Assembly: GCA_002256985.1 (NCBI GenBank) | Contig: NCGO01000014.1 | Location: 1 to 64,000 of the forward strand | Length of the DNA stretch: 64,000 nucleotides | Reading direction: 5' to 3' | From: Novosphingobium sp. 28-62-57 | GTDB lineage: Bacteria; Pseudomonadota; Alphaproteobacteria; Sphingomonadales; Sphingomonadaceae | Part shown: positions 24,530-62,315 of the stretch, one piece after another | Layout of the letters: every line of letters begins with the position of its first letter | Position numbering within the stretch: the first letter of the stretch is position 1 | Position numbers and translations under genes: made by a program | The notes under the pieces: generated by a model | Told to the model about the DNA's origin: nothing | Seen by the model: the letters and a program-made list of their open reading frames with translations, nothing else | The model's database searches: none

Positions 24530-25402
24530 TCATCGATATTTGTCGCGGGCAGCCTGTCGATGCCGTCGCGAGCGAACGCCCGACGCCAGTTCTACCACCT
24601 CGGCGGTAACCGCCTCCTGGCGTGTCATCCGCTCGAGCCCTTGCAGCGTCTCGAGCTTAGCGGCGATATTGGTGCTAGCGGATGCCATCGTCGAGACACG
24701 CGCTTCATTCTCGGCGGCGAAGCATTCGGTGGCGGCTTCGCAGATCTGCGCGAAGACATATTCCTCGGTCAGACAATCGAGCAATTTTGGCAGAGGTAGC
24801 TGGATCAGCGGTGGCGTGGAGGTGACACTGCTAAATCTGGCAAAATCGAGCGGCAACAGGCGGCGCTGCGTGACCTTTAAGCCCTTCCCGGGGGTCCAGA
24901 CCGGGAATATCAAGTCGATCCGGCTCGCTCCGCTGGTGTCGAGATAGGTCGTGACCGCCTCGATCAGCACTGCGGCCACCTCGATGATGGCGGCAGCGCG
25001 CAACGGTGCCGCGAAGGTGGCGGCGAGGGGCAGCCCGCGTTCGCGCGCCAGCGACGCGGTGCGGTCGCCGACCAGGAAAACATGCGAATTTGCCAACGCG
25101 GAAGTGGCACTGTCGAGCACGCGATCGGCAAAGGTGCCCGCGAAGCCCTGCTCGGCGCCGAACACGATCACGCCTGGCGGCGCGGTCCGGTGCGACATCG
25201 GCGTGACGGGTGACGTGTCGTCGAGCAGCAGCGCCTGCTCGATCGCGCGCGCCGCGACATCGCCGTAAGCACGTGCCGCTGGCAGCAGCGCGCGACCCTG
25301 TTGCGCGCGGGCAGCGGCGATACCCCGCATCGCGTTGACCACCGCGCCGAGCTGCCTGACGGTCGCGATTTGGGCGCTGATATCGGCGAGCTGCTCGGTC
25401 AT
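24530..25402 (-). CDS. atpG: N-ATPase gamma subunit
   Basis: The 290-residue product is the central-stalk gamma subunit of an F-type ATPase. The N-terminal helix ([22 protein letters not shown]) and C-terminal helix ([19 protein letters not shown]) match the coiled-coil rotor shaft. It is the last ATPase gene and overlaps atpA by 4 bp. As usual for N-ATPases, it diverges more from textbook gamma than alpha and beta do. Confidence 0.9.
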
Positions 25403-26916
25403 GGCGTGGTCTGTCCCACGCTATTGGTCAGTCGGCCCACTGCTGCGATCAGCGCTGCACGATCGGGCTCGCTCAGTGTGCCGCTTTTCTCGACCGATGC
25501 GACCGTCTCCGCCGCCTGCGCGTCAAGCCAGGCGGGCAAGCGCGCGCGTAGCTCAGCGACCGTCTCTACGGCGATTGCGTCGAAAGCTCCCTGTGTCAGT
25601 GCCAGCGCCAGCGCAGTCTGGTCGACGACGCGCAATGGCTGGAACTGGGGTTGGTTGAGCAAGGCGCGCAGCCTTTGCCCACGGTCAATTTGCGCCTTCA
25701 CGCGCGCTTCGGGCTGCTCGCCGAAGCGCGTGAACATCTCCAGCTCGAGGAATTGCGCGTAATCCAGGCGCAGCTTGCCCGAAACGTCGCGCAGTGCGCG
25801 CGCCTGGGTTTTGCCACCTACGCGGCTGACGCTGATGCCGACATCGACCGCGGGCTTTTGCCCTTGCGCGAACAGCTTGGCGTCGAGCGCAATCTGCCCG
25901 TCGGTGATCGAGATGAGATTGGTTGGAATATAGGCGCTCAAATTTCCCGCATCGGTCTCGGCGATAGGCAGCGCGGTGAGCGAGCCGCCGCCCTTGGCGG
26001 GCGAAAGCTTGGCAGCGCGCTCCAGCAAGCGGCTGTGGAGATAGAAGACGTCGCCGGGATAGGCCTCGCGCCCCGGAGGCTGACCAGTGAGCAAGGCGAT
26101 CTCGCGGTGCGTGGCCGCATGCTTGGTGAGATCATCGACAACGATCAGCACATGACCGCCGCGATCGCGGAAATATTCGCCCATGGTGAAGGCGGCGAAC
26201 GGAGCGATCCATTGCAGCCCAGGCGCCTGTGCGGGGCTCGCCACCACGAAGATGCATCGCTCGGGCGCGCCGTGACGACGGACTTGTTCGATTGCCCGCG
26301 CGACACTCGACGATTTCTGCCCGATCGCGACGTAGATGCAGATGACGTCGCTGGAGCGCTGGTTGACGATCGCATCGACCGCGAGCGCGGTCTTGCCGGT
26401 CGCGCGGTCGCCGACGATCAATTCGCGCTGGCCGCGGCCGAGCGCGAACAGTGCGTCGATCACGAAGGTCCCCGTTTGCACCGGCTGGACAACCAGGTCG
26501 CGGTCGATGATTGCGGGCGCGGCGCGTTCGATCGGTTCGAAGCTTTCGGCGGCGATGGCCGCACCGCTATCGAGCGGCCGACCGAGCGGATCGACGACCC
26601 GGCCGAGGAGCCCTGGTCCGACCGGCGTGCGGACAACCGCGCTGGTGCCGGTCACCATGGCACCCGCTTTCACGCCGTCGGCATCGTCGAGCAGCACGCA
26701 GCCAAGAGTTTCGCCGTCGAGCGTCTGGACGAAGCCCGCCTGGCCACCGTCGAAGTGCAGCAGTTCGTCGAGCCGGGCGTTAGGCAGGCCGGAAATCATA
26801 GCGACGCCGTCACCGATCGAGTCGATGCGGCCTATCTGGCGCAGTTCGGGGGCGAGGACGGTCGCCGCGACGCTCTGGCGCGCGCGCTCCAGCCAGCTCT
26901 CAGGCGTCTCGGGCAT
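25399..26916 (-). CDS. atpA: N-ATPase alpha subunit
   Basis: The 505-residue non-catalytic nucleotide-binding subunit of the F1 head has an intact P-loop (GDRATGKTA), the signature block [17 protein letters not shown] and the conserved [11 protein letters not shown] stretch. The start overlaps the end of the b-subunit gene by 17 bp. It forms the alpha3beta3 head with AtpD. Confidence 0.96.
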
Positions 26917-27652
26917 CGTTTCCGTCTTTCGCGAGGTGGCCGAGCATATCGTCCAGATCGGCGCGCCAGCTGTTGCGGAGGTGGACGTGCGCGCCGCGCA
27001 ATTCGCAGCCGCCGATCAGATCCGGTTCCTCCTCGAACGCGAGGTCGAGTGGCAGCGGAAGGAGCTTCGCCAAGGCGTCGCGGCAGCGTGCGCGTTCACT
27101 GTCGTGGAGCGGGGTGGGCGTGACGAGGGTCAGCGCGATGCCGTCAAAGCTTCTGGCGCGGTCCACTTCGAGCATGGCGGCGAGCTGGTCGGTCAACTTC
27201 TGGAACATTGCCTCGTGGATCACGGCCGACGGCAAGTGCTGGACAAGCTTTGCGGCCAAGTCACCCGCAAGCGTTGCCGCTTGAGTCTCCAGCGCCTTGC
27301 GCATGGCGTCGCGTTCGGCGGCGATACCAGCCTTGGCCGCTTCGCCCATCTTTTCGGCATCGGTCTGGGCCGTTTCGAGCAATCGGACGCGGTCGGCGTC
27401 GGCGGCGGTGCGAACTTCGGCGCGAAGCCGTTCCGCATCGGCCGCAAGAGCGGTGTTGCTGGCTTTGAGGGCCGCCGCCTCGGTCTCCGCTTGCGCCTTC
27501 GCCGCCGCCGCATCGGCGAGCAGAGCGTCGGCCGCCGCCTGACGCGCTGCGATCGCCGCCACCACCGGCCGGTAGAGGAAGCGGCTAAGCAGCCAGATCA
27601 GGACAAGGACGTTGATCGCCTGGAGCGCTAGCGTCCACCAGTTGATATGCAC
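26900..27652 (-). CDS. atpF: N-ATPase b subunit (extended stator)
   Basis: The 250-residue protein has one N-terminal membrane helix ([21 protein letters not shown]) and a long Ala/Glu-rich coiled coil. A globular C-terminal part follows. No separate delta gene exists in the operon, and in N-ATPases the b subunit is longer and is thought to replace delta. It lies 9 bp after the c-subunit gene. Confidence 0.9.
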
Positions 27653-27661
27653 TGTTCTGGG

Positions 27662-27904
27662 TCAGGCGAACGGGTTGGCGAAGAGCAGCAGCAATGCGAC
27701 GACCAGGCAGTAGATCGCCATGGTCTCGATCATCGCCAGGCCCACGAACAGCGTGCGCGAAACGGTGGCCGCAGCCTCTGGCTGTCGTGCGATAGCGTCC
27801 ATCGCAGCGGCGACGGCCTTTCCTTGCGCCAGCGCGGGGGCGATCGCGCCGAGCGAGATCGCGAGCGCAGCGCCCATGATGCTTATCAAATGGATCCAAT
27901 TCAT
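27662..27904 (-). CDS. atpE: N-ATPase c subunit with sodium-type ligands
   Basis: This 80-residue two-helix hairpin forms the membrane rotor ring. Aligned on the ARQPEA loop with the Ilyobacter sodium-binding c subunit, it keeps Gln at position 32 (AQGK), Glu at 65, Thr at 66 and Tyr at 70 (IETMAIY). This pattern is expected for Na+ rather than only H+ binding. Unlike the Ilyobacter protein, position 67 is Met. The start overlaps the a-subunit stop by 4 bp. Sodium transport is inferred from sequence. Confidence 0.93.
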   Translation of the reverse strand: MNWIHLISIMGAALAISLGAIAPALAQGKAVAAAMDAIARQPEAAATVSRTLFVGLAMIETMAIYCLVVALLLLFANPFA

Positions 27905-28590
27905 GTCATTGCCTTTTGCTGGATGGAAGTGGTTTCGCTGACCGCACCGCCGATGAAGACCATCGCCAGAGCGCCGAAAATATAGGCCTGTACCGCGCCG
28001 GTCAGCAGTTCGAGCGCCATGAGCGGGATCGGCACGAGCAACCCTGCCAGGCTGAGTACGATGCCGATCACGAATACCCCGCTCATCATGTTGCCGAACA
28101 GGCGAACGGTCAGCGACAGGCTGCGCGTGAACAGTTCGATCAGGTTGAGCGGCGCGAGCAGGATCGAAGGCTGGGCGAAGCTGCGGACATAGCCGTTAAC
28201 GCCCAGCGCGCGGATCCCGAACCAGAGCGTCGCGCCGAACACGATCAGCGCGAGCGCGATATCGGTCTCCAGCGTCGCGGTCGGGGGCTCGACGCCGGGG
28301 ATCAGCGACGACCAGTTGGCGACGAGCAGGTAAAGGAAGAACGTCCCGATCAGCGGAAGATACGGGGCCGGGGCGACTCCCATAGTCTCGCGGATCTGGA
28401 CTGAAAACATATCGACGACGAGCTCGAGCGCGGCTTGCGCTCGCGACGGCTTGAGCGCGAGGCGACGCGTGATCAGCCATGATCCTACGCTCAAGAGCAG
28501 TATGATTCCCCAGGTGGTGACGACCGGCGTCGTAATCGGTACCGGACCGACCATGAGCAGGACTTGCGTGTCGAACGGCGAGCTGATCAT
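27901..28590 (-). CDS. atpB: N-ATPase a subunit
   Basis: The 229-residue membrane subunit forms the ion half-channels next to the c-ring. It begins at ATG 28590 (MISSPFDTQ), overlapping the atpR stop. The essential Arg lies in SLTVRLFGNMMSG of the penultimate helix region, and the final GAVQAYIFGALAMVFI helix is conserved. About five hydrophobic segments are visible. Confidence 0.93.
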   Translation of the reverse strand: MISSPFDTQVLLMVGPVPITTPVVTTWGIILLLSVGSWLITRRLALKPSRAQAALELVVDMFSVQIRETMGVAPAPYLPLIGTFFLYLLVANWSSLIPGVEPPTATLETDIALALIVFGATLWFGIRALGVNGYVRSFAQPSILLAPLNLIELFTRSLSLTVRLFGNMMSGVFVIGIVLSLAGLLVPIPLMALELLTGAVQAYIFGALAMVFIGGAVSETTSIQQKAMT

Positions 28591-28853
28591 GATGGCAGCC
28601 TTAGTCGGGGGAGGATCAGGTGCCGCGCGAGCAGGAACCCGCCTGCTGCTGCCACGAGCGCGGGCGCTCCTTGCGTTGCTGCCCAAACGAGCGTCCCGAT
28701 CGTGACCGCCAGGCGTCCGAGCCGCCAGCCCAGTGCCGCGAAGGTGGAGCCGCCGACGACCACGAGGTTGACATCCTTGCGCAGGGACAGGAAATGGATC
28801 GCGCCTGCGGCCATGCCGAGGCACCCGAAAGCCGGAATGGCGACCGCCATCAT
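28587..28853 (-). CDS. atpR: N-ATPase accessory membrane protein AtpR
   Basis: The 88-residue protein has three hydrophobic helices. In N-ATPase operons a small gene atpR always lies between atpQ and atpB; this position, size and hydrophobicity fit. AtpR is thought to help assemble the c-ring or supply an Arg for its Glu residues. The start ATG 28853 overlaps the atpQ stop. Sequence motifs alone would not identify it. Confidence 0.82.
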   Translation of the reverse strand: MMAVAIPAFGCLGMAAGAIHFLSLRKDVNLVVVGGSTFAALGWRLGRLAVTIGTLVWAATQGAPALVAAAGGFLLARHLILPRLRLPS

Positions 28854-29133
28854 CGCCTGTTGATCCAGCGCCATGCCGACCAACCGCCGAACACTGCGCC
28901 GATCATTATCAACGGCGCCGTCCAGAACACTCCGCTGGCGAAATGATGGTCGAGCCAACGCCCGGCGGCGAGGCAAATCAGGATCGGCACGGTGATCGTC
29001 CAGCCAAGCGCGCCGATCTGGCCGAGATTGCGCGCCAGCGACGGGGCGCCGTCGCGCGCCCATGCCTTGCGGCGATCGGCGCGCACGCGTACCGCCTTGG
29101 TCAGCCGGGTTTCGCGGTCGGGCAGGGGGTCGC

Positions 29134-29137
<4 letters not shown>
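28850..29137 (-). CDS. atpQ: N-ATPase accessory membrane protein AtpQ (AtpI-like)
   Basis: The 95-residue protein has a basic N-terminus and two hydrophobic helices (WTITVPILICLAAGRWLDHHF and FWTAPLIMIGAVFGGWSAWRW), like AtpI/AtpQ, which may carry magnesium or aid c-ring assembly. The GTG start overlaps the epsilon stop (GTGA). Position after beta-epsilon is diagnostic of N-ATPase operons. Confidence 0.85.
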
Positions 29138-31031
<1,894 letters not shown>

Positions 31032-40004: not shown

Positions 40005-40700
40005 TCAATGCACCTTGACCATACCGACGCCCTTGATGTTGTTGAACGAGTCGGTCTGGTGACAGCTGAAGCACTGATCAACGCGCGCCCGTTTTTCGCC
40101 GCTGATCATCTTGTCCATCATCTCGAAGTGCATCATGTAATGGCTCGGCGGTGCCTTGTGACATTGTGAGCATTCGGTCGATTTCGGACTTGGATGCAAG
40201 AAGCCGCTGATTTTCCAGCTTGCCGTAGTGTGGCAGCTTGCGCACTCAGGTCCAAAGAATCCCTTATGGATATCCCGAGGCGTGTGGCAGGATTGGCAGT
40301 CGAGTTTTGCAACTTGCCCTGTAGCGCGCTTCGCAATCTTCTCGAGGACCAGGTGATCCATCCTGACCGGACGAAGAGTGCGGCCCTGATGCTCGATGTG
40401 GCAACCCCCGCACTCCTTTAGGTTGGCGTGGAAGGCGGTCGCGGGTTTCATCAGGAGTTCAGGCGCAGAGGCGTGGCATGCGATACAGGTTTCGGCCTTG
40501 ATGCCCTGGTTGGGAGTATGGCAGCTCTCGCATTTGCCTTCGAGCAATGCGTGGGCGCTCGACAAGGGCCCGGGACGGACTGCCGATGACCATTGGGGTA
40601 GCGCAGTGCTTCCCGAACGGTAGACTGTGAAGGGGACCACGATGGCTGCGAGCAGCGCGATCGTCGCAAGCACCAGGTAAAGGATTGTGGTTCGCTTCAC
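40005..40700 (-). CDS. Heptaheme c-type cytochrome
   Basis: The 231-residue protein starts at GTG 40700, overlapping the upstream stop (GTGA). It has an N-terminal anchor helix (ILYLVLATIALLAAIVVPF) and seven CxxCH heme sites: CESCH, CIACH, CGGCH, CQSCH, CASCH, CSQCH and CFSCH. Additional His residues (IEHQGR, MDHLV, DIHKG) could be distal ligands. It belongs broadly to the cytochrome c3/NapC-NrfH-like multiheme group but matches no named enzyme subunit. It is the last of four coupled genes and should take electrons from the b-type cytochrome at 40697-41380 to a periplasmic acceptor. The acceptor is unknown; copper or iron ions are candidates. Confidence 0.88.
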   Translation of the reverse strand: MKRTTILYLVLATIALLAAIVVPFTVYRSGSTALPQWSSAVRPGPLSSAHALLEGKCESCHTPNQGIKAETCIACHASAPELLMKPATAFHANLKECGGCHIEHQGRTLRPVRMDHLVLEKIAKRATGQVAKLDCQSCHTPRDIHKGFFGPECASCHTTASWKISGFLHPSPKSTECSQCHKAPPSHYMMHFEMMDKMISGEKRARVDQCFSCHQTDSFNNIKGVGMVKVH

Positions 40701-41380
40701 GGCAGCCACCGAAGGCCGTAATAGTAGCCGCCCCAAATGTGCAATGCCATCAGGCCATACATCACAATCGCAACCGCGACATGGAACACCGTCCACCGCG
40801 CGAGGGTGCGCTTGATCGCATCCCGTGCCATTATTGTAAATTCGAGATCCGAAATGGCACCGAGCAGATGATCGAGACTAAGTCCTGACGGGTCGATGAC
40901 GCTTTCGCGATTCCAGACTACGGAAACTGTGGCCAACCCATCGTAGCGGTCGCGAAGCAGCTTGAGCTCTTTTTGCTGAAGCCGGAGATCCTGGCTGACC
41001 TGCGCAAGATAATATCGCCCGATGAATCCGCTCGCGACGACCGCGAGCATCGATATCACAAGGCTCACACCGAGCGGACTCTGAAACTTGTGGCCGGAGT
41101 GAATGATGCCGAGCAATGCCCCGATTGCGCCGGCGTAGACGTGAAACCCCATTAGCGCCCCAAGCGAGATGGAGCCTTTGGTCCGCTCCTTGATCCAGGC
41201 CTGCCGCTTCACCGCCGTGTAGGACAGCAGGAGCAGGAACAGAAGCGCGGCGGCGATCCCGAACATGCTCCCGGCAAGGCTGCCCGGGAAGCGGGGCGCG
41301 GAATGGATAAGAAATCCGGGGACGATCAGCGTTAGCACACTGACCAGGCCTCCGACCGTGATTTTTTCGGTTTCGGTCAT
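40697..41380 (-). CDS. Five-helix b-type cytochrome membrane protein
   Basis: The 227-residue protein has five predicted membrane helices. Helices 3 and 5 each carry two His residues spaced for bis-His heme b binding (MGFHVYAG...GIIHSGH and FHVAVAIVMYGLMALHIWGG). A soluble loop of about 60 residues follows helix 4. The pattern resembles ferric-reductase or cytochrome b561-type electron carriers without being a clear member. Starts and stops overlap those of both neighbours, so it is made together with the flavoprotein and the heptaheme cytochrome. It probably moves electrons across the membrane between them. Confidence 0.8.
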   Translation of the reverse strand: MTETEKITVGGLVSVLTLIVPGFLIHSAPRFPGSLAGSMFGIAAALLFLLLLSYTAVKRQAWIKERTKGSISLGALMGFHVYAGAIGALLGIIHSGHKFQSPLGVSLVISMLAVVASGFIGRYYLAQVSQDLRLQQKELKLLRDRYDGLATVSVVWNRESVIDPSGLSLDHLLGAISDLEFTIMARDAIKRTLARWTVFHVAVAIVMYGLMALHIWGGYYYGLRWLP

Positions 41381-43371
41381 CAGGCCTCCACCACCAGGTC
41401 ACCGGTCGATTTTGCCTGACAGGCGAGGATGATTCCCGCTGCCTTCTCATCCGCGGCGAGCGCGTCCTCGACCTCCATGGTTGCCTGACCCTGGCGGAGT
41501 GGCACTTTGCACCGACCGCAGGTGCCAGCTCGGCAATCATAATCAATCGCTACGCCAATCGCCTCGGCGGCTTCGAGCACCGACTGGTCCGGCGCGAGGG
41601 GGCCTGCCTTGCCGGACTTTGAGAATGTGATGGTGGCGTGTGCAGACGGGATCGGCACGGCCTGATCAGCGGTGAATGCCGGTGTCGCAACAGGTTCCGA
41701 GGGTTCGGCTTCCATGACTGGGCCACCCTTGAGCGGAGCGAACTCTTCGGTTTTAACCTGGTCTGATGGGACTTGGAGCTGCGCGAGCGCTTCTTTCACT
41801 GCAGCCATCATGGGGGGTGGGCCGCACAAGTGGACTCGTCGTTTCGCAATGTCGGGTACCGAGGCCGCTATGAAATCTGCCGTCATGTAGCCCACCTGGC
41901 CTTGCCAATCGGTGCCTTCGGCTTTGGCGACGGTATACGCGACGTGAAGCTTGGGATGGCGACGTGCCAGATGATCGCACTCATCGCGGAAAATGAGATC
42001 TTCTGGTGTATTCACGCCGTAAAGTAGAAAAATGTCGTGCTCGTAGGACCGGTCTGTGAGACTTCGCAGAACGCTCATCATTGGCGTGATGCCAACGCCG
42101 CCGGCGATCAGAACGATGCCGTCGGCTTCCTTCCCCGTGAAGAAGAACCTGCCGGCGGGGGCAGATATTTCAAGGAGATCGCCGGTATCGGCATGATCGT
42201 GAAGATGACGCGACTCCAGGCCATATTGTTCACGCTTGATCGTGAGTTCGATATAGTCGCGCTGGGTGGGGGATGATGAGATCGTGTAGGATCGACGGAC
42301 TTTCTGTCCGTCGATTTCCGAAGTGATTGTTGCGTATTGCCCCGGCAGGAAAGTGAACGGGATGGGACCGCCGTTCGCCTCCATTAAGCGGAACGTTTTC
42401 ACGTTCGGCGTTTCGTCGAAGATCGCCTTGATGCGCAGCACCCCCTTCCAAGGGCGTTGAGCGGGCGGCGGAGCATTAGTCTCGGCAGACACCTGTGGGA
42501 CGCCCGCGAGAACAGCGGGCTGTGCCATTGCCGTGGGTGCAGCCGGAGCGCCAATTGCAGTTTGTGCTGTGGGCGACCCTGGCATCAGTCGCTCGACAAG
42601 GCTCGCGATGCGACGAAGCCGAGCCTGCCGCAAGAGCAGGGCGGCAAGGAGTGCCGCCGCGAGCAGTACCATTCCAATGATGTGCCACCAGGAAAGGCCG
42701 CTATCCGTCGCCATTTGTTCAGCTCCGCCTATTCCATTTTGGTTCTTGAACCATGTGAGAGCGATCTCGCGGGGTGCCTTGCCTTCCTCCAGTCCCTTGA
42801 GGGCGCTCACGCCGCTGTCGGCTTGGGCAAGGCCTTCGCGAGCCCCCTTGATGGCGTCACCGGCAGCTACGAAGTCGTTGGACGCAAGCGCGTGATGGAG
42901 TCGGGATTGCTCGGCAGTCAGCACTTCGGTCCCCGAGCCGAGGCGCTTTAGCGCTTCGGCTCGAACGGCCCGCCGCGCTTCGTCGGTCAGCGCTGGCCAT
43001 TGCATCAGCGAGGGGTAGAAGGGTTTGGCACCCATTGGCCCGCAACAGCCGGAGGGCGCGGCTGTGCCACCCATACCTCCCGGCCCGGCAGATCCGGCCG
43101 ACGGTGACATCATCTGCTTCATCATGGCGGCCATTGGGTCAGTGCCCGAGCCTCCCATGGGTTGTGTTGCAGGCATGTCGGTGCCGCTGGCTGCGGCAGG
43201 CATGGCTGGAGCTGCCCCGCCTCCGCCTGGATGATGCGAAGCGTGCTCGTCAGCGGTTTGCGCCACGACCGACGGTGATGTGAGCATCACCGTCAGTGCG
43301 ATCAGAACCCGGTAGCCAATCCGACTCCAGAGAGTTCGGTGAGTAGTGATTTGATGGAGCGGACGCTTCAT
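41380..43371 (-). CDS. Membrane-anchored FAD/[2Fe-2S] reductase with Met-rich periplasmic domain
   Basis: The 663-residue protein is a fusion. After a signal peptide comes a Met/His/Gly-rich, probably metal-binding stretch (residues 43-115, with SGCCGPMG), then a helical domain and one membrane helix near residues 226-250. The cytoplasmic half is a ferredoxin-NADP reductase module with FAD motif RSYTISSSP and nucleotide motif GGVGITPMMSVLRSL, followed by a plant-type [2Fe-2S] domain (CRAGTCGRCKVPL and a later Cys in LACQAKS). It should take electrons from NAD(P)H and pass them to the adjacent b-type cytochrome. It lies 10 bp after the Met-rich gene. The periplasmic metal-binding head fused to a cytoplasmic reductase is unusual. 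Confidence 0.85.
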   Translation of the reverse strand: MKRPLHQITTHRTLWSRIGYRVLIALTVMLTSPSVVAQTADEHASHHPGGGGAAPAMPAAASGTDMPATQPMGGSGTDPMAAMMKQMMSPSAGSAGPGGMGGTAAPSGCCGPMGAKPFYPSLMQWPALTDEARRAVRAEALKRLGSGTEVLTAEQSRLHHALASNDFVAAGDAIKGAREGLAQADSGVSALKGLEEGKAPREIALTWFKNQNGIGGAEQMATDSGLSWWHIIGMVLLAAALLAALLLRQARLRRIASLVERLMPGSPTAQTAIGAPAAPTAMAQPAVLAGVPQVSAETNAPPPAQRPWKGVLRIKAIFDETPNVKTFRLMEANGGPIPFTFLPGQYATITSEIDGQKVRRSYTISSSPTQRDYIELTIKREQYGLESRHLHDHADTGDLLEISAPAGRFFFTGKEADGIVLIAGGVGITPMMSVLRSLTDRSYEHDIFLLYGVNTPEDLIFRDECDHLARRHPKLHVAYTVAKAEGTDWQGQVGYMTADFIAASVPDIAKRRVHLCGPPPMMAAVKEALAQLQVPSDQVKTEEFAPLKGGPVMEAEPSEPVATPAFTADQAVPIPSAHATITFSKSGKAGPLAPDQSVLEAAEAIGVAIDYDCRAGTCGRCKVPLRQGQATMEVEDALAADEKAAGIILACQAKSTGDLVVEA

Positions 43372-43381
43372 GCTGATACTC

Positions 43382-43756
43382 TTACATATCGTCCTGCATG
43401 GGCATTGGCTTGTCGGCGGGCATCGGTGCAGGCTTTGCGGCGGCCGGCTTGGCGTGCCTGCGATGTCTGGGGCTGTGCTTCGACCTTCCCATAGTTTTCA
43501 TCTTCTTGGCGCAGCATCCTGACTTGTCCTGTGCCATAACGGGTTTAGGCATTTGCATGCCGCCTTGCATGCCGGGCATCGCGTCATGACCTTCCATCAT
43601 CCCACCGGACGGCATTGCACTGCCGTTGGGAGACATGGGGGGCTGGGTTGAGGCCTGTCCTGTTCCTTGGCTCTGGGCCGCAGCAAGGCTGGGAGACAGA
43701 AGAACGCCGCCTATCAATGCCAGCGAATAAAGATAGGAAGTGCGACTTTTCATCAT
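43382..43756 (-). CDS. Met-rich secreted protein, probably copper-binding
   Basis: The 124-residue protein has a signal peptide (LALIGGVLLSPSLAAAQ) and a Met-rich mature region (PSGGMMEGHDAMPGMQGGMQM), a Cys pair (SGCCAKK) and the ending PADKPMPMQDDM. Nearly the same ending (PADKPMPMSDM) closes the protein at 61430-61798. Such proteins bind Cu(I) or Ag(I). GGAGG precedes the ATG. It is the first gene of the reductase-cytochrome operon and has a CANTACGTATR element about 85 bp upstream. Confidence 0.82.
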   Translation of the reverse strand: MMKSRTSYLYSLALIGGVLLSPSLAAAQSQGTGQASTQPPMSPNGSAMPSGGMMEGHDAMPGMQGGMQMPKPVMAQDKSGCCAKKMKTMGRSKHSPRHRRHAKPAAAKPAPMPADKPMPMQDDM

Positions 43757-43953: not shown

Positions 43954-44325
43954 TCAGTCATCGCGGTGGACTCCTGTTGCCCTTTGCCAAGGCCAACGGC
44001 CCTTAATCTCAACTTCAAGAGAGAAGCTCAGAAATGTCCTTATAAGCACAATGCCCGCAAGAACGGCCAAACTGTTCAGCGTTGGCTGAATAGCTATGGT
44101 ATTGATTATGTCCGCTGCAACCAGGAATTCGAGACCCAAGAGGATGGCTTCCCCCAGATTTGAGCGGAAACTTCCAACAGAACCTTCATCGGTCAAGCCC
44201 TTTGCCGCTGTCAGTAGGAATCTGAGAAGCGAGTAACCCGCACCGACGACAATGATCGCCGTACCCGTGATTTCTATCGCACGCGTGATCCAGTGGATAG
44301 CCTCGATGAGAATGCTGTCCATCAA
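43954..44325 (-). CDS. DUF1622 membrane protein
   Basis: The 123-residue protein has three to four hydrophobic helices and matches the DUF1622 family, with unknown function (ITGTAIIVVGAGYSLLRFL, GEAILLGLEFLVAADIINTI, LAVLAGIVLIRTFLSFSLEVEIKGRWPW). The start codon is followed by a second ATG-like codon; the first is used here. It appears to be a single-gene unit. Confidence 0.82.
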   Translation of the reverse strand: MMDSILIEAIHWITRAIEITGTAIIVVGAGYSLLRFLLTAAKGLTDEGSVGSFRSNLGEAILLGLEFLVAADIINTIAIQPTLNSLAVLAGIVLIRTFLSFSLEVEIKGRWPWQRATGVHRDD

Positions 44326-46112: not shown

Positions 46113-46928
46113 TCACCTTACGACCTTGGCCAAGATGAACGAGTCGATGGCATGGGCAACGCCATCCTTTTCGTTCGAAAGGGTCACTAGGCTTGCGGCC
46201 GTGCGGACGGCAGCCGGTGCTTGCCCCATCGCGATCGACAGGCCGGCACGCGCAAACATCGGCATATCGTTGCGTTGGTCACCGATTACAGCGACGTCGT
46301 CGAGCGGCACTCCAGCTGCACCAGCCAATGCAGAAAGGCCATCGCCCTTGTTGGCACCGGGCGCCGTGATGTCGAGATAGTAGGGTTGGGAACGGCCGAC
46401 CGTTGCCGCCGCGCCAAGTGCGGATGAAATTTCTTTGTCGAGGCGGGCCAGAAGCTCGCGGTCGCCGCTGACTCCAACGATCTTGTCAACCCGTGCCAGC
46501 AATCTGTTAAAATGGCTCCGGAGCACTGGTTCAATGTTGGCGGCATGCCGTTCAAGAGGGACGTAGACCTCGTCGATCGTTTGGGCAAACCAATGGCCGT
46601 CGGCGAACAACCACAGGGTGACCGCTGGGTGGTCCAATAAGGCAATCGCCCGCGCCGCACAGTTTGGCTCGATATGCTCAGCCAATACTATCTTTCCGTC
46701 GGGGCGCATGACTGTTCCTCCGTTGAATGCGCCCATGACATCGGAGATTTGCAGCCTTTTCGCGATCCACAACATGCCGCTTGGGGGACGGGCGCTGATC
46801 AGGCTCATTGCAAGACCAGCGTTCCGGACCCGTTCGACTGCGGCGATCACGCCGTCCGACAGGCTTTTGTCATCGCGGACCAGCGTACCGTCGATGTCAC
46901 ACACAAGGAGGCGTATGCGCCCGCTCAT
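46113..46928 (-). CDS. Cof-type HAD-IIB phosphatase
   Basis: The 271-residue product from ATG 46928 overlaps the zwf stop by 4 bp. It has DIDGTLVRDD with the nucleophile, ISARPPSG and the C-terminal GDQRNDMPMF motif of Cof-type phosphatases, which hydrolyse sugar phosphates and nucleotide-related phosphates. Coupling to zwf suggests a sugar phosphate from the pentose-phosphate route; the substrate is not known. Confidence 0.88.
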   Translation of the reverse strand: MSGRIRLLVCDIDGTLVRDDKSLSDGVIAAVERVRNAGLAMSLISARPPSGMLWIAKRLQISDVMGAFNGGTVMRPDGKIVLAEHIEPNCAARAIALLDHPAVTLWLFADGHWFAQTIDEVYVPLERHAANIEPVLRSHFNRLLARVDKIVGVSGDRELLARLDKEISSALGAAATVGRSQPYYLDITAPGANKGDGLSALAGAAGVPLDDVAVIGDQRNDMPMFARAGLSIAMGQAPAAVRTAASLVTLSNEKDGVAHAIDSFILAKVVR

Positions 46929-48355
46929 CCCAGACGGTGCCAGCGCCGGTGCGCGCGATGCATCAGCGCGTCGGCGCTTTCGGGGCCGGCGCTGCCTGCA
47001 GGATATTCCTCGGGCGAACCCTGCTGCCACATTTCGAGCAGCGGTTGCACCGCGCGCCATCCGGCTTCGATCTGGTCGGCCCGCTGGAAAAGCGTCTGGT
47101 CGCCAGTCAGCACATCATAGAGCAGTGTCTCGTAGCCAGTCTGATGTTGGAGCTCAAAATGGTCTGCATAGCTGAAATCCATGCTGACCGGCGCCGTGTT
47201 CACTGCGGGGCCTGGCTGTTTGACCACGAATTCGAGGCTGATTGCCTCGTCAGGCTGGATTTGGATGACGAGCCGGTTAGGCGGGAGCCGGTCGACCACC
47301 GTCTCCCTGAAAAGAGAGAGCGGTACATCCCGAAACTGGATCACGATCTCGGTATCGCGCGCCGCCAGCGCCTTGCCCGTGCGCAGGTAGAAAGGGACCC
47401 CCGTCCAACGCCAGGTTTCGACGTGTACCTTCATTGCGACGAATGTCTCGGTTCGACTGAGTGGATCGACAGCGGGCTCCGTGAGGTAGGCAGAAACTGG
47501 TTCGCCCGCGACCGCGCCGGTGCCATATCGGCCGCGAATGGCCTCCTGGGGGTCGATCGGGCAAATAGCACAGATGACCTTCGCTTTCTCGGTGCGGATC
47601 GCCGCAGCATCGAAACTTACCGGCGGCTCCATGCCGATCATGGCGAGAAGCTGAAACAGATGGTTGGGCACCATGTCACGCAGCGCGCCGGTGGCATCGT
47701 AGAACTTGCCACGGCTGCCGATGGTTACGGCTTCTGCGGCCGTGATCTGGACGTGATCGATGTAACGGTTGTTCCAGACAGATTCGAGCAAGGTGTTGCC
47801 GAAGCGCGCTACCATGATGTTCTGGACCGTTTCCTTGCCGAGGAAATGGTCGATCCGGTAGATCTGGTCCTCTTTGGCGCGGGCAAGGACCTGGCGGTTG
47901 AGCGCCTGTGCGGTAGTGAGATCGGTGCCAAACGGCTTTTCGATTACCACCCGCCGAAAGCCCCGGGATTCGTCGAGCAGACCCGCATCACCTAAAGCAT
48001 CGACGATGGGGCCGAAAAAGCCTGGACCAGTGGCGAGGTAGAAAACAGTGTTCCCCTTGAGCTCGCCCGCCAACGACGTGAACGTTTTTGAATCACGGAA
48101 GTCGCCCTTCCGGTAATGGACGTGGCTCCGGATGTTCTCCCAACTGGGCCTCTCTTTCAGGAAGTCATCGAGAGCGCGACGCAGCCCGTCGTCATCACAG
48201 TCATGATGACTAATGCCAAGCAGCTCGGTCTCAGGCGCCAGAAGCCCGGCTTCCGCGAGATTGACGAGCGCCGGGAAAAGCAGTCGACGTGTGAGATCAC
48301 CCAACGCGCCGAAGATGACGAACGTCGCTGCCGGGGAGACCGGAGCCTTATTCAT
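46925..48355 (-). CDS. zwf: Glucose-6-phosphate 1-dehydrogenase
   Basis: The 476-residue enzyme oxidises glucose-6-phosphate to 6-phosphogluconolactone and makes NADPH (or NADH). The coenzyme site [10 protein letters not shown], the substrate/catalytic motif RIDHFLGKE and the EKPFGTDL segment are intact, and the length is normal. It overlaps gnd and the following HAD gene by 4 bp each. It is probably a second zwf, since sphingomonads usually also carry one with the Entner-Doudoroff genes; that is inference. Confidence 0.97.
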
Positions 48356-49338
48356 TGCGGCATTTCGACGTGCCCGCCGAACCCGAATCGCATCGCCGAT
48401 AGCACCTGGTCGCCGAAAGTATGGTCGACCCGGCTGCGATAGCGGGCGAACAGCGCAGCGGACAGGACGTAGACGGGGACAGACTCCTCCATTGCCGCCT
48501 CGATCGTCCAGTGACCCTCTCCCGAGTCGGCGACTCGTCCGGAAAATTGGCTGAGCATCTGGTCATTCGCCAGCGCATCGGCAGTCAGATCGAGCAGCCA
48601 AGAGGAGATGACGCTGCCACGCCGCCACACTTCGGCTATGTCGGTCAGATTGAGGTCGAAGCGCTCATCCTCCGGCAGCTTGTCCGACTTTTTGCTCTTG
48701 AGAATATCGAAACCCTCAGCGTAAGCCTGCATCAGCCCGTACTCGATGCCATTATGGATCATCTTGACGAAGTGGCCTGCACCTGCCGGCCCTGCGTGGA
48801 TGTATCCCTGCTCGGCGCGCGGATCTTCGCCCTCTTGCTCCATACGGTTGGCGGTACGCGGGATCGTTCCGAGCCCCGGCGCCAGCGCTGCGAAGATCGG
48901 GTCAAGCAGATCGACTATCGCCTTGTCCCCGCCGACCATCATGCAATAGCCGCGCTCCAGTCCCCAGACCCCGCCGGATGTGCCGACGTCCACATAATGG
49001 ATGTTCATCTCTCGCAGGGAACGTGCCCGTCGGATGTCATCCTTGTAAAAACTGTTGCCGCCATCGATGATTATGTCGCCCGGCCTGGCGAGGCCCTTGA
49101 GCGTCTCAATCGTGTCCTCGGTAGGCGAGCCGGCGGGGAGCATCACCCAAAAGATGCGTGGTGATGTCAGCGCGTTGGCGGCGGCTTCCAACGACGAGGC
49201 CGCGATCGCACCCTCTGCGGCAAGGTCTTCGACGAGGGGGGGATTGCGGTCGAAGGCCACGACTTCATGTTCGCGGCGCATCAGTCGGCGCGCGATATTG
49301 GAGCCCATCCGCCCCAGACCAATGATTGCAATTCGCAT
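48352..49338 (-). CDS. gnd: 6-phosphogluconate dehydrogenase, short decarboxylating type
   Basis: The 328-residue enzyme oxidises and decarboxylates 6-phosphogluconate to ribulose-5-phosphate. It has the coenzyme motif [17 protein letters not shown], the signature [20 protein letters not shown] and the catalytic Lys region [13 protein letters not shown]. The short form is typical of the GndA branch and often prefers NAD+. It overlaps zwf by 4 bp and follows tal-pgi by 4 bp. Confidence 0.96.
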
Positions 49339-49342
49339 AGAG

Positions 49343-52162
49343 TTAGGTTCCCTGATGGTCGCGTGCGGCAGCGACCACCGCTGCGCGCAACGCTTCGATG
49401 CCGCCGCCGTCCCCCTTTAAGTTGACACGCAGTACATGCCGACCGCGCGAGGCCAGAACGGCCATGTCACCGCGGGCCTGTGCAAGCTGGATCGTCCCGA
49501 AGCTCGCTTTGTGACCGGGGATGGCTAGATCGGCATCGGAATCGCGCGTGATGACCAAGAATGAGCCGCTCGCCGGGCCGCCTTTATAGACCTGCCCGGT
49601 CGAGTGGAGGTAGCGGGGTCCAAACCCGGCAACGGTCGCCACGGTGTTGGCATCGCGGAGCGCTTGGCGCATTGTCGTGACAGCCTTTTCATTGGCCTCG
49701 TTCCGCTCGATGTAGGCGAGAAGTCCCGCATATGTACCATGTGTTAGGCTAGCGAAGTGCAGTCGTAGCAACGCGACTGGATCGGCAGAGCGCGGGCCGT
49801 CATCATCCGAGGCATACACGGAAAAGTCGGCATTTTCTGCGATCGGTTTTTCCTGCCCGAGAGCGCCCGTCGCCTCGAACGAGTCGACCAGTGCGCGCGT
49901 CGCGATCTTGGCGTCCTCGACATCGGGTTGGTCGAACGGGTTGATGCCGATTACCGCACCGGCGATCGCGGTCGCGACCTCCCACCGGAAGAATTCCTGA
50001 CCAATCAGGTCACGGCTAGCGACGTGGATCGTAACTAGCGGCTGGCCGGCGGCCACGAGTGCCTCGAGCTTCAATTCAAGTGCGTCGTCGTCGTCGCCCT
50101 GCAGGTGCAAATGGACGAACATCCGATCGTTCGCATAGCTTTCCGGTGAGCCGACGGGCTCCAGGTCGACGGGAACAACACCCTTTCCCTGCTTGCCTGT
50201 GGATTCGGCTATGAGCTGTTCCAGCCAGGCACCGAACGGCTCCAACCCCTTCGACGGCAGGATGGTAAGCTTGTCCCGCCCGGCCAATGCCGCCTCGCCG
50301 ATAATCGCCCCAAGGCGCATGCCGGGGTTGTGTGTGGGAGGCACATCGGCACCGCATGCAGATATCATCGCCGCGGTCGCCGCATAGATGGCGCTTGTGT
50401 CGAGCCCCATTACGGCCGCGGGCACCATACCGAATGCCGATAGCACGGAGTAGCGCCCGCCAATGGCCGGGTCGCCGGCGACGATCATCGTGAAACCGTC
50501 CCGCTTGGCAGAAGCCTCAAGCTTTGAACCTGGATCAGTGACCGCGATAAAATGGTTGCCATCCTTGCCCGACAGTTCCCAGAAATAGGCGCGCAACAAC
50601 TCTGGCTCCATGGTCGAGCCCGATTTGGATGAGACGATGAACAGGGTGTTTGCTGGATTTATCTCGGCCGCCACTGCCGCAATCTGGTCTGGATCCGTGG
50701 TGTCGAGCACGTGGAAGCGTGGATGGGTTTGGCGGCTGCCCAGGATCAGCGAGAGCACTTCCGGACCGAGGCTCGACCCACCCATGCCGAGCAGGACCGC
50801 GTCCTTATAGCCTCTGGCCTTTGTGGTTAGTGACTTCAGCGCATCGCCATCGACCTGCTGACCCCGAGCCGCCGCGAGCCAACCGAGCCAGTTGGCTTCC
50901 CCCCGGTCGGTCCACAGCGTCGCCTCATGCTGCCACAGACGGCGCACCCAGCCGTCCACACGCGCCGACTCCAAACGGGCCTCGACCGCCTGTCGGAGCC
51001 CCTCGGGAAGGGTGACTTCCATTCCGTTCTGGCGGTCGCCCAGATATGCCTCGCGCTTGGCCGCGACGCCGCCAAGCAGCGCGTCGGCGGCGTCTGCGAA
51101 CAGTCTCACGCCTTCTTCGACGAGGCCGGTGGTGACAACGTCCAACGCCAGGCCGAGCCGTCGCGCCTCTGCGAGGACGTGACGGGCATCGTCAAGCTGC
51201 TGGGTCAGGGTCAGTTGAATGGTGCCGTGGTCGCGGAAGGCATCCATCGTCTTGGGCGGTATCGTGGTGATCGTGTCCGGGCCGATCAGCGCGTCGACAT
51301 AAAGCGTGTCCGGGTAGGCGGGATCCTTGGCCCCGGTTGAAGCCCACAGCAGTCGCTGCGGCATTGCGCCTTTTGCAGCGAGGGCTTGCCAGCGAGCGCT
51401 GGCAATCATGTCCTCGTACCAAACGTAAGCCAACTTGGCGTTGGCGATCGCAACTTTTCCTCGGATGGCGAGCAACGCGTCGCTCTCGGCATCGCCGGCT
51501 TTCACCCGTTCGTCGATTGCCTTGTCAATTTGCGCATCGATGCGGCTAACAAAGAAACTGGCGACGCTCGCCACCCTGTCAATCGGTTCGCCAGCCTCTG
51601 CCCGTGCCTCGAGTCCATCCAGATAAGCTTCGGCAACCAACTGATAAGCTTTGAGCGAGAAAAGCAAGGTCACGTTGATATTGAGCCCATCCCTGATCAA
51701 CGGAGCGATCGCGCGGACGCCGGCTTTTGTGCCGGGCACCTTCACCATCAGGTTGGGCTCATTCACAGCTGCCCACAGGCGCCTTGCTTCCGCAACCGTG
51801 ACATCGGTGTCGTTCGCGACATAAGGCGAAATCTCGAGGCTGACGTAGCCGTCTTTGCCGTCGAGTAGGTCATATACTTCGCGCAGATCGGTCGCGGCCG
51901 CCTTGATGTCCGCGATAGCCTGGATTTCGTAAATATCCTGAACACTTGCATCGGCATTACCAAGGATCGACTGAAATCCGGCCTCATAGGTATCGCCGTG
52001 GCCCATCGCCTTCTCGAAGATAGACGGATTGGAGGTGACGCCAGTTAGGCCGTCCTCGCCGACAAGCTTGCGCAGCCCGCCGTCTGCGAGGAACTTGCGG
52101 TCAACGAAATCGAGCCATACTGCCTGGCCCATTCCGCGAAGCTCGTTCAAGCGGCTGGTCAT
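49343..52162 (-). CDS. tal-pgi: Bifunctional transaldolase/glucose-6-phosphate isomerase
   Basis: The 939-residue fusion begins at ATG 52162 after GAGGAG. Residues 1-370 are transaldolase ([24 protein letters not shown] with the Schiff-base Lys, and [10 protein letters not shown]). Residues 400-939 are phosphoglucose isomerase ([52 protein letters not shown]). Tal moves a dihydroxyacetone unit between sugar phosphates and Pgi interconverts glucose-6-P and fructose-6-P, so the fusion joins two recycling steps of an oxidative pentose-phosphate cycle. The gene leads the operon with gnd, zwf and a HAD phosphatase. Confidence 0.97.
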
Positions 52163-52333
52163 CTGTAGCTCCTCTCGATCAGACGCCCCGAATGGCGCTC
52201 TTATTATTGAGAATGACGCATGATATCTCACTAAGCTGAGCGTATTGGCTAAGGCTCTGAGGCTACCCAACGTGATCGGGCTGACGTTCCGGCCGACACA
52301 AAGACCCAGGACACTTGGCCCAGCTTCTCAGTT

Positions 52334-58802: not shown

Positions 58803-58899
58803 TTGAGCTTGGAGCTTGGTCCTTACTCCGGACTTTGAAGAACAGCTCTTCCCCATAAGGCCTGGGGGCGGCCTTAAAAAGTTCACGAAGGAGTCGAAG

Positions 58900-59256
58900 A
58901 TGATCAAGAAGTCTCTCATGGTTGCGATTGCAGGCATATCGATGCTTGGAGCTGCACCGGTCCTCGCTCAAGGTATCGGCCACACCTGGTTCATGCGCGG
59001 TACTGTTGTCGCCGTCGACAAGACCGGCACTGTCGTCTGCATCGGCAAGGCCGATGGCGCGGAGGTTGGGCAGACCCTCGACGTGGTCCGTGCCGTCTAC
59101 CATCCGGGGCCGAGCAAAGCGGGTACGGGCTATCACCGGCAAAATGTTGGCCACGTTCGCATCGACCACATTTTCGATGACCATTTTGCCCATGTCACTG
59201 TCGTCGACGGCCGTGTGGCAAAGAACGACATCGTCGAACTGGCTCGCAGCCACTGA
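58900..59256 (+). CDS. GHxWFMRG-family secreted protein, copy 1
   Basis: The 118-residue product has a signal peptide (VAIAGISMLGAAPVLAQ) and a compact mature domain beginning GIGHTWFMRGTVVAVD. It continues with VVCIGKADGAEVGQTLDVVR, a variable Tyr/His loop, and HVRIDHIFDDHFAHVTVVDG...KNDIVELARSH. GAAGGAG precedes the ATG. Two further full copies lie at 59355-59711 and 61910-62269, and a fossil at 20925-21055. The repeated short strands and Gly turns suggest a small beta barrel with conserved His, Met and one Cys. No known family is recognised. A periplasmic copper-related role is inferred from location. Confidence 0.75.
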   Translation: MIKKSLMVAIAGISMLGAAPVLAQGIGHTWFMRGTVVAVDKTGTVVCIGKADGAEVGQTLDVVRAVYHPGPSKAGTGYHRQNVGHVRIDHIFDDHFAHVTVVDGRVAKNDIVELARSH

Positions 59257-59354: not shown

Positions 59355-59711
59355 GTGGCCAAGTTTCACATGGCGGTGGCATTTGCAGCGTCCCTCTTTA
59401 CAGCAAGCGCACCGGTAAGTGCACAGGGCATAGCTCACACCTGGTTCATGCGAGGATCGATTGTCGGAATTGACTATCGCGGGCCCGTTGTTTGCATTGG
59501 CCGTGTTGATGGAGCCGAAGCCGGGCAGGTACTCGAAGTTTATCGCCCAGCGCCCGTTTACTTGCGAAGGCGGGGGTCAAACCACTACCGCAAGAAATTG
59601 ATCGCACATGTCGCAGTCGATCAGATTATAAATGACCACTACGCTCATGTAACGGTGATTGATGGAGAACCACGCAAGGGCGACATTGTAGAATTACAAC
59701 GACACCATTGA
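59355..59711 (+). CDS. GHxWFMRG-family secreted protein, copy 2
   Basis: The 118-residue product starts at GTG 59355 after GGAGGA. It has a signal peptide (AFAASLFTASAPVSAQ), then GIAHTWFMRGSIVGID, VVCIGRVDGAEAGQVLEVYR, a basic Arg/Tyr-rich loop (VYLRRRGSNHYRKK) and HVAVDQIINDHYAHVTVIDG...KGDIVELQRHH. It is clearly paralogous to copies 1 and 3; the loop length differs. Function unknown. Confidence 0.75.
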   Translation: MAKFHMAVAFAASLFTASAPVSAQGIAHTWFMRGSIVGIDYRGPVVCIGRVDGAEAGQVLEVYRPAPVYLRRRGSNHYRKKLIAHVAVDQIINDHYAHVTVIDGEPRKGDIVELQRHH

Positions 59712-60881: not shown

Positions 60882-61319
60882 ATGTTGGAAAGACGCAAAC
60901 TACTTGGAGGGGGAGCTGTTCTGCTAGTGGCAGGTGTTGCTGGCCAGGCCAGTGGCAAGAATGATGGCGAACGCGGCATGCCTATGCCAATGCCGATGAA
61001 GGATTGCATCGATCTGTGCTGGGCGTCGCATGTGATGTGCCTGGAGACAGTCGCTGGCCTTACCGTGATGGGGGCCAGCGCCACTGCATTGCAACTCGCT
61101 GCAATGTTGAGCGATTGTGCGGAGATCTGCCAAACTACGGCAAACTCGATGATCAGGCGCTCGCCCTTGCATACGGTGCTCTGTCAGGCTTGTGCCGAGG
61201 TTTGCGAGAGGTGTGCCCGCGCCTGTGGCCAACAAGGTAGCAACCCCTCTCTGGCACGTTGTGTGGAGAGTTGTCGGAGCTGTTCGGAAAGCTGCAGGCA
61301 CATGGCGACGATGGGATAA
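60882..61319 (+). CDS. Csp-like four-helix-bundle copper-storage protein with Tat signal
   Basis: The 145-residue product from ATG 60882, after GGAG, has a twin-arginine signal (LERRKLLGGGAVLLVAG). The mature domain is a DUF326-type four-helix bundle with about 13 Cys, mostly in CxxxC spacings (DCIDLC, DCAEIC, LCQACAEVCERCARAC, CVESCRSCSESC). In Csp1-type proteins such Cys residues line the inside of the bundle and store many Cu(I) ions. Export by Tat means it folds in the cytoplasm first. The frame extends upstream without a signal, so this start is preferred. Confidence 0.9.
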   Translation: MLERRKLLGGGAVLLVAGVAGQASGKNDGERGMPMPMPMKDCIDLCWASHVMCLETVAGLTVMGASATALQLAAMLSDCAEICQTTANSMIRRSPLHTVLCQACAEVCERCARACGQQGSNPSLARCVESCRSCSESCRHMATMG

Positions 61320-61336
61320 TAGGATCTAGCTTCGCA

Positions 61337-61347
61337 CATTACGTATA
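61337..61347 (+). promoter_or_regulatory. CANTACGTATR-type element upstream of the Met-rich gene at 61430
   Basis: CATTACGTATA lies 82 bp before the ATG at 61430, and 17 bp after the stop of the Csp-like gene. It has the same core as the sites at 57224 and 58792. Confidence 0.5.
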
Positions 61348-61429
61348 CCGATACGGATGCCAGCATTGCATCAACGTGGTCTCAATTTGGTGTTCACGAA
61401 GTAACGCAGCAATGGCTGGAGATCGGATT

Positions 61430-61798
61430 ATGCGTAGGTCAGCAATTTATCTTGCTCTTTTGGGGCTGGCTGTGGCCGGATCCGGCTACGTGTTGGCCGA
61501 TGAACTTCCTCCCGGCATGAAAGTGGTGCAGGCGCCAAAGCCCAAGGCTACACCAACTCCGCCAGCTCCAAGTCAGGAGCACATGCAGGGCATGGATCAT
61601 GGCGCGCAGCAGATGCATGATCGGATGATGCATGATCATCAAATGGGCATGCAGAACATGCAGCAATCTTCTGGAGGCGGAATGGCACCCGATGCTGCAC
61701 AAAGCCAGACACCGATGCCCATGCCATCGGGAAAAGCTTGTTGCCCACCCAAAAGCATGAAGCCGGCGGATAAGCCTATGCCAATGAGCGACATGTAG
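61430..61798 (+). CDS. Met/His-rich secreted protein (mosaic of two others)
   Basis: The 122-residue product has a signal peptide and a mature N-terminus ADELPPGMK, matching that of the protein at 55787-56122. The middle is Met/His-rich (HMQGMDHGAQQMHDRMMHDHQMGMQNM). The C-terminus (KACCPPKSMKPADKPMPMSDM) matches the end of the protein at 43382-43756. It probably binds copper. GGAG precedes the ATG. Confidence 0.78.
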   Translation: MRRSAIYLALLGLAVAGSGYVLADELPPGMKVVQAPKPKATPTPPAPSQEHMQGMDHGAQQMHDRMMHDHQMGMQNMQQSSGGGMAPDAAQSQTPMPMPSGKACCPPKSMKPADKPMPMSDM

Positions 61799-62269: not shown

Positions 62270-62315
62270 TTCGCAAACCCAACGTCAATTATATAAGGCT
62301 CTCCTTCTCGTGAAT

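Follow-up and report, generated by a model that had tools for sequence, protein, structure and literature searches.

A mobile gene triplet predicted to encode a transmembrane electron conduit with a heptaheme cytochrome c outlet, found most often in copper-resistance settings

By gene order, the closest described counterparts of the genes treated here are two genes of the AltDE hydrogenase cluster, orf1 and cyt; the order of that cluster is orf1/cyt/orf2/hynD/hupH/hynS/hynL (PMC3102683). The sole bacterial cupric reductase accepted in the review PMC7558416 is CcoG, which protects against copper. We analysed a 64,000-nucleotide stretch of Novosphingobium sp. 28-62-57 (assembly GCA_002256985.1, contig NCGO01000014.1, positions 1 to 64,000), called the window below. 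Four of its genes encode a Met-rich secreted protein, a membrane-anchored reductase with flavin adenine dinucleotide (FAD) and [2Fe-2S] domains, a five-helix cytochrome b and a heptaheme cytochrome c, and the last three are referred to as the triplet. Judged from its sequences, the triplet is a real, mobile three-protein redox conduit, met most often in copper-resistance settings. Its architecture is a variant on the theme of NAD(P)H transmembrane oxidoreductases, and as an architecture it is new.

The initial annotation of this DNA did not recognise the genes as a named system, and in open-licence full-text papers we likewise found no description beyond orf1 and cyt of the hydrogenase cluster. 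The excerpts of copper papers on Alteromonas (PMC8478169) and Cupriavidus (PMC10304878) do not describe the triplet, and a term search of the Methylorubrum copper paper PMC9948745 had no match. To the initial annotation we add a DUF1622 gene, further invariant His residues (H26 and H97 of the cytochrome b, H230 of the reductase) and the hydrogenase-linked relatives.

Across 84,980 species genomes the search pattern matched 414 times, and 393 of these matches were confirmed as relatives. The best 80 of the 393 were taken as genome loci, a set that leans to Alphaproteobacteria, and with 10 plasmid loci they make 90 loci holding 92 cytochrome c genes. The 90 cannot be counted as independent, since L033 represents either the locus of the window itself or a twin of it, and L028 and L069 are one plasmid. 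The cytochrome b gene adjoins the cytochrome c gene in 91 of the 92 cases and the reductase gene does so in 89, and thus the synteny that had been put forward as a test of the operon held, with no loss in relatives. All exceptions lie at locus or contig ends; the reductase is off the contig in L105, while L069.1 and L028.1 both stand for one second copy on pBBta01, a Bradyrhizobium plasmid. This plasmid carries two triplet copies, and in its complete record (L158, 6103-8257) the second consists of cytochrome b, cytochrome c and part of a reductase, next to an IS3 element. Other apparently broken or cut copies have a split reductase frame (L036, L050 and L051) or a short cytochrome b frame (L051). 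The pairwise distance matrices of the three proteins, compared over 64 loci, correlate with r of 0.86-0.93 (0 of 1000 permutations as high); because adjacency is kept and the matrices correlate, we conclude that the triplet genes move and evolve together. The cytochrome b and c genes overlap by 4 bp in 88 of 91 cases, a count that leans that way since start codons were picked nearest the cytochrome b stop, and the same overlap is found in most annotated plasmid records (Variovorax has +1 and Spirosoma -13). Such stop/start codon overlap suggests a fixed stoichiometry.

Protein searches of 72,556 plasmids found the cytochrome b in 52 records and the cytochrome c in 53. The hosts include Sphingobium, Rhizorhabdus, Sphingomonas, Novosphingobium, Bradyrhizobium, Methylocystis, Acetobacter, Variovorax, Alteromonas, Legionella, Methylophaga, Spirosoma, Pontibacter and others, and 26 of the 52 plasmids bearing the cytochrome b are conjugative by typing. 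The triplet is patchily spread among the sampled genomes. In the host family the cytochrome b had matches at E 0.001 in 96 of 298 genomes and matches above 100 bits in 15 (own genome included); the weak ones (~30% identity, residues 10-140) were set aside as unrelated membrane proteins. In the host phylum the cytochrome c was found at E <1e-80 in 7 of 398 genomes, again with the own genome included, and for a gamma/betaproteobacterial genome 1 of 369 genomes of its class was positive. Contig NZ_FPEH01000026.1 of Novosphingobium sp. NDB2Meth1 encodes a cytochrome c identical to that of the window.

The reductase matches FAD_binding_6, NAD_binding_1 and Fer2 over their Pfam cut-offs, and no 4Fe-4S family exceeds its Pfam cut-off; Fer2 indicates a [2Fe-2S] cluster instead. 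Hydropathy gives a signal-peptide-like N-terminus, a head of ~190 residues, and a strong helix at 229-247 followed by five Lys/Arg, with a third, weak helix candidate (417-435) lying within the NAD-binding domain. Because of this helix and the five Lys/Arg after it, the positive-inside rule would make the head periplasmic and the flavin and cluster domains cytoplasmic. The membrane-anchored FAD/[2Fe-2S] reductase with a Met-rich head, as initially described, thus has Pfam domains and hydropathy in agreement. We aligned 82 reductase sequences longer than 550 amino acids (aa). The head carries an HxxHH motif whose H43, H46 and H47 are conserved in 95-98% of them, and Met83 and Met84 are kept in 88-89%. 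At the helix start all 82 have H230 and 81 have M234, and the cluster cysteines C613, C618, C621 and C651 are conserved at 99-100%. Met makes up 5.2% of the heads vs 2.2% elsewhere in the reductases. The best NCBIfam score is that to GbcB (230.6 vs a cut-off of 500); the score to PaaE is 166.7 (vs 420.8). As to the Met-rich protein, the predicted secretion was upheld by a hydropathy-based signal peptide, and 17 of its 124 residues are Met. It has CC and Met-rich motifs and matches no Pfam or NCBIfam family; it is likely a periplasmic binder of Cu(I) or other metal.

In the Fre/NOX proteins, two helices that each carry a pair of His at a spacing of 14 form the bis-heme pattern. In the cytochrome b the pairs H80-x13-H94 and H200-x13-H214, each 14 apart, lie on two of the five helices given by hydropathy, and the Lys/Arg-rich loops put H80 and H200 inside and H94 and H214 outside. 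These four residues match a stack of two hemes like that of Fre/NOX. Near the outer face lie H26 and H97, which may bind metal or a third heme; all six His are invariant in 88 of 88 sequences. The protein exceeds no Pfam or NCBIfam cut-off, DUF4405 (18.7 vs 26.7 bits) and Ferric_reduct (14.1 vs 28) being nearest. Among 11 diverse members, DUF4405 matched 7, Ferric_reduct 3 (best E 0.012) and the prokaryotic b561 family 1, all weakly (E between 0.0005 and 0.1); NCBIfam gave scattered weak names only for 46 members, and a profile search against solved sequences gave only unrelated weak matches.

The cytochrome c has a single N-terminal membrane anchor by hydropathy and matches Cytochrom_c3_2, Paired_CXXCH_1 and Cytochrome_C7 over their Pfam cut-offs. 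Exactly seven CxxCH motifs occur in 91 of 92 cytochrome c proteins, the remaining one being truncated by its locus end. Hydropathy and motif count thus agree with the five-helix, bis-His cytochrome b and the seven-CxxCH cytochrome c of the initial annotation. Nine further His are conserved at 98-100% in 91 sequences; as the conserved His suffice for two ligands per heme, the protein has the look of an electron relay and not of an enzyme. It scores 19.2 bits against the NrfH model, whose cut-off is 134.2, and among solved-structure profiles it matched just one at 0.01, from a cytochrome c domain that is membrane-bound (2a3m, E 0.0003). The heptaheme profile also had weak matches in 6 of 398 Pseudomonadota genomes, which were rejected as triplets: the five opened all proved to be frames with 21-24 CxxCH. 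At loci L127-L131 the weak homologues have 21 to 24 hemes and more multiheme frames come after them, resembling the PCC3 sets of iron oxidisers.

Neighbouring genes were counted in flanks of up to 10 kb on each side of 77 loci (the 80 genome loci minus the twin pair of the window and the duplicate from pBBta01), and again in 53 non-redundant loci, one per 10% divergence of the cytochrome c. The controls were 20 windows of 20 kb from four genomes, two of them triplet-bearing. Strict copper families (multicopper oxidases, CopB, CopC, CusF, DUF411, DUF305 and four-helix copper proteins) occur in the flanks of 46 of the 77 loci and 35 of the 53, vs 1 of the 20 controls (Fisher p 7e-6, an optimistic value since the families were drawn from system-bearing loci and the window, the control genomes are four and the loci are related). 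DUF1622 genes flank 34 of 77 loci (23 of 53 non-redundant, 0 of 20 controls), and LTXXQ (Spy/CpxP-like) or metal-sensor genes 39 of 77 (35 of 53, 0 of 20). A homologue of the Met-rich protein is found at 14 of the 77 loci, and either this or an LTXXQ/metal-sensor gene at 53. An extracytoplasmic function (ECF)-type sigma factor gene lies downstream of the triplet in 17 loci (e.g. L097 11539-12333), with an LTXXQ periplasmic gene upstream; envelope-stress or metal-sensing regulation is possible from this pairing.

Table 1. Triplet genes and associated genes in the window
Feature	Coordinates	Strand	Properties
Met-rich secreted protein	43382..43756	minus	124 aa; signal peptide by hydropathy
Membrane-anchored reductase	41380..43371	minus	663 aa; Pfam PF00970, PF00175, PF00111
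Five-helix cytochrome b	40697..41380	minus	227 aa; hydropathy and invariant His
Heptaheme cytochrome c	40005..40700	minus	231 aa from ATG at 40700; seven CxxCH
DUF1622 small membrane protein	43954..44325	minus	PF07784, 82.8 bits vs cut-off 24

The single run of four genes (Table 1), its coordinates, the gap and the overlaps were re-read and found correct: the Met-rich and reductase genes are 10 bp apart, the reductase and cytochrome b genes overlap by 1 bp, and the cytochrome b and c genes by 4 bp (ATGA). The DUF1622 gene lies 197 bp upstream of the Met-rich gene in the same direction, and its product is probably an accessory of the operon. Copper-type genes of the window include a CusABC-like set (14166-19755), P-type ATPases, MerR, a DUF326 four-helix protein and a multicopper oxidase. 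The frame of this last gene starts at 62310 and is the nearest candidate for a terminal enzyme seen in the window; the initial claim that there is no such enzyme stands for the operon itself. Cytochrome c assembly proteins are encoded in the host genome.

Several other genes of the window deserve record. A second Met/His-rich secreted protein (61259-61798, plus strand) ends in PADKPMPM like the Met-rich protein of the operon, to which it is identical at 34 of 125 aligned positions; its gene lies between the DUF326 four-helix gene and the multicopper oxidase frame, which runs from 62310 beyond the window end. Three small secreted proteins (58816-59256, 59355-59711 and 61910-62269, plus strand) form a tandem family of 42-50% mutual identity surrounding the MerR/copper genes; the type (hyp_8494) has a homologue in 14 of the 77 loci, and its representative matches no Pfam family. 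Upstream of the operon in the same direction (46925-52270, minus strand) lie genes named by inspection as glucose-6-phosphate dehydrogenase, 6-phosphogluconate dehydrogenase and a transaldolase/glucose-6-phosphate isomerase-like fusion, a possible source of NADPH. Pentose-phosphate or phosphoketolase genes flank 19 of the 77 loci but only 6 of the 53 non-redundant ones, vs 1 of 20 controls. An extra F-type ATPase operon (24530-30998, minus strand), in N-ATPase-like order by inspection, stands beside an oleate-hydratase-like gene, and extra ATPase genes are also paired with the triplet on a Legionella fallonii plasmid. A 736-aa frame at 4416-6626 (plus strand) fuses a leading cytochrome c domain to an FTR1 iron-permease domain that follows it.

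The reading we favour, at a little under even confidence, is that the triplet forms a three-protein transmembrane conduit with a periplasmic metal-binding front end, which in copper loci reduces Cu(II) to Cu(I). The genes, their order, the cofactor motifs, the topology pattern, the conservation and the copper neighbourhood are seen directly; from these we infer that the three proteins form a complex. The cytoplasmic FAD/[2Fe-2S] module would draw two electrons from NADH or NADPH and hand them on singly. They would then pass from the inner to the outer heme b across the membrane, and on to the anchored heptaheme cytochrome c, a periplasmic store and distributor for as many as seven electrons. 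At copper loci, the window included, the electrons would most likely go to Cu(II) on the His/Met head and the Met-rich protein, and the Cu(I) formed would be kept by Met sites and passed to Cu(I) exporters (CusCBA, P-type ATPases). We propose this Cu(II) to Cu(I) step because of the copper neighbourhood, the His/Met head and the exporters' known preference for Cu(I) (PMC7558416). The chain suggested initially, from NAD(P)H through FAD, [2Fe-2S] and heme b to seven hemes c, has domains, topology and invariant residues (82-91 sequences) in its favour, and its wiring would be as read from the sequences. If the acceptor is copper, an outward direction of the electrons follows from redox potentials. 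On the same grounds we rejected a reverse flow, in which Cu(I) would be oxidised and NAD+ reduced.

Taken more broadly, the triplet might be what bacteria have, in mobile form and across phyla, in place of the Fre/STEAP surface metalloreductases of eukaryotes. It would then be a cupric reductase dedicated to the periplasm, driven by NAD(P)H and with a heptaheme outlet, its conduit re-used as the wiring of an Alteromonadaceae [NiFe] hydrogenase. This we offer tentatively, as more doubtful than likely. A widespread, plasmid-borne conduit with a metal-binding head would explain a quinone-free transfer of reducing power across the membrane in metal-stressed cells, and would offer a testable function for the cytochrome b family, for DUF1622, and for orf1 and cyt of a much-engineered O2-tolerant hydrogenase cluster.

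Several points weigh against cupric reduction by the triplet. Periplasmic Cu(I) is usually oxidised in copper resistance, which makes a reductase there counter-intuitive; a reductive step may be odd beside Cu(I)-oxidising multicopper oxidases, yet the cupric reductase CcoG protects against copper. The metal setting is upheld as an association and is not exclusive, since 31 of the 77 loci have no strict copper family in the fetched flanks (some contigs being short) and the Alteromonas and Glaciecola triplets adjoin a hydrogenase. The copper-free loci include several of Bradyrhizobium with full 10-kb flanks, where LTXXQ protein, ECF sigma factor and OpgC genes recur. We found no inverted repeat resembling a MerR-type operator in the two upstream gaps of the operon, and no biochemical or expression data on the triplet. 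The structure model of the cytochrome c was poor (predicted local distance difference test, pLDDT, 60.3) and was set aside. The AlphaFold2 model of the cytochrome b (mean pLDDT 86.6) had 0 Foldseek matches to solved folds at E 0.001; the best E was 0.17, and rank 40 went to a chain of cytochrome b6 (E 1.3).

The triplet could be a general hub between NAD(P)H and the periplasm, with no fixed substrate and with the cytochrome c serving whichever redox partner the island holds (multicopper oxidase/O2, cytochrome c, metals or thiols). Candidate partners do vary by locus, from multicopper oxidases (24 loci) to hydrogenase and small c-type cytochromes (Alteromonas and Acetobacter plasmids), and an all-bis-His cytochrome c would suit a relay, but the His/Met head and the LTXXQ or Met-rich companion at most loci point to a metal-related role, and we consider such a hub rather unlikely. 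That the triplet reduces Fe(III) (or Mn) for uptake, with Fe(II) imported by neighbouring Nramp/FTR1-type carriers, would fit the NCBI label 'iron reductase' that the cytochrome b bears on several plasmids, the Nramp gene downstream in Rhizorhabdus and the FTR1 fusion of the window. This uptake role is quite improbable in our estimate: Nramp genes flank 10 of the 77 loci, but these are close relatives (2 of 53 non-redundant loci, vs 1 of 20 controls), the Ferric_reduct score is below cut-off, and copper families occur much more often. Another role considered is the repair, by reduction, of Met-rich proteins oxidised in the periplasm, with the conduit feeding a methionine sulfoxide reductase in the manner of MsrPQ. 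MsrQ is also a two-heme b protein, and the companion and the reductase head are both Met-rich; among the tallied neighbour families, however, we recognised no MsrP-like or other reductase (no search was aimed at MsrP), and repair seems to us very improbable indeed.

The partner might also be a hydrogenase. The triplet lies directly upstream of a [NiFe] hydrogenase operon in Alteromonas and Glaciecola, where plasmids pAM1A3 and pGLAAG01 carry, in order, the reductase, cytochrome b, heptaheme cytochrome c, a 407-aa membrane protein, hynD, hupH and hynS, then the large subunit and hyp genes. The gene before the reductase encodes a Met-rich LTXXQ-like protein on pAM1A3 and an exported protein on pGLAAG01, and a porin O/P gene lies upstream in Glaciecola. 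The cytochromes b and c of HOT1A3 pAM1A3 match by tblastn, the latter with seven CxxCH, and by gene order we match orf1 of AltDE to the homologous cytochrome b and cyt to the homologous cytochrome c. A hydrogenase small subunit was found within 10 kb in 6 of the 80 genome loci vs 0 of 20 controls; five of the 77 loci are hydrogenase-linked, three of these also with copper families. Electrons from H2 might enter the cytochrome c and travel inward to reduce NAD(P)+, or flow the opposite way, a role to which we give little probability. Most fetched loci show no hydrogenase, and a search of the host genome (100% complete) found no match to the [NiFe] large subunit, while the same search was positive in 5 of 14 control genomes; H2 is therefore excluded as a partner here, unless the gene is absent from the assembly. 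In addition, HynSL assayed with an artificial dye reached its maximal activity in E. coli with no need of Orf1 and Cyt (PMC3102683; also PMC4307346), and the A. macleodii hydrogenase likely returns to the cytoplasm (PMC4070099), away from a periplasmic cytochrome c. The HOT1A3 plasmid confers copper, zinc and mercury resistance at the levels of deep-ecotype strains (PMC4781885), which says nothing specific on the triplet because cop and czc genes are also present.

Compared with described systems, the triplet of the window shares with AltDE orf1 and cyt (PMC3102683) a homologous cytochrome b and c, and on pAM1A3 the reductase and Met-rich LTXXQ-like genes precede these as well; the AltDE pair differs in lying beside a hydrogenase. 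The GbcB and PaaE oxygenase reductases have the same FAD-NAD-[2Fe-2S] order, but the scores fall below their cut-offs and the reductase here has an extra N-terminal periplasmic head and transmembrane helix. PCC3 multiheme cytochromes of iron oxidisers (PMC10734462) come into view because the heptaheme profile matches proteins with 21 to 24 hemes (E values from 1e-17 to 1e-26); these sets have three times the hemes, plus a porin and an extracellular cytochrome, none of which was seen in the triplet (no systematic porin search was made). CcoG (PMC7558416) is likewise a bacterial membrane protein proposed to supply Cu(I), and its loss raises copper sensitivity. It has two [4Fe-4S] clusters and neither heme nor flavin, whereas the reductase here has a Fer2 [2Fe-2S] domain. 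The Fre/NOX/STEAP proteins share the path from NAD(P)H through FAD to two stacked hemes b, with His pairs 14 apart on two helices; the triplet differs from them in its separate polypeptides, its added [2Fe-2S] domain, its heptaheme cytochrome c outlet, and a cytochrome b that scores below the PF01794 cut-off.

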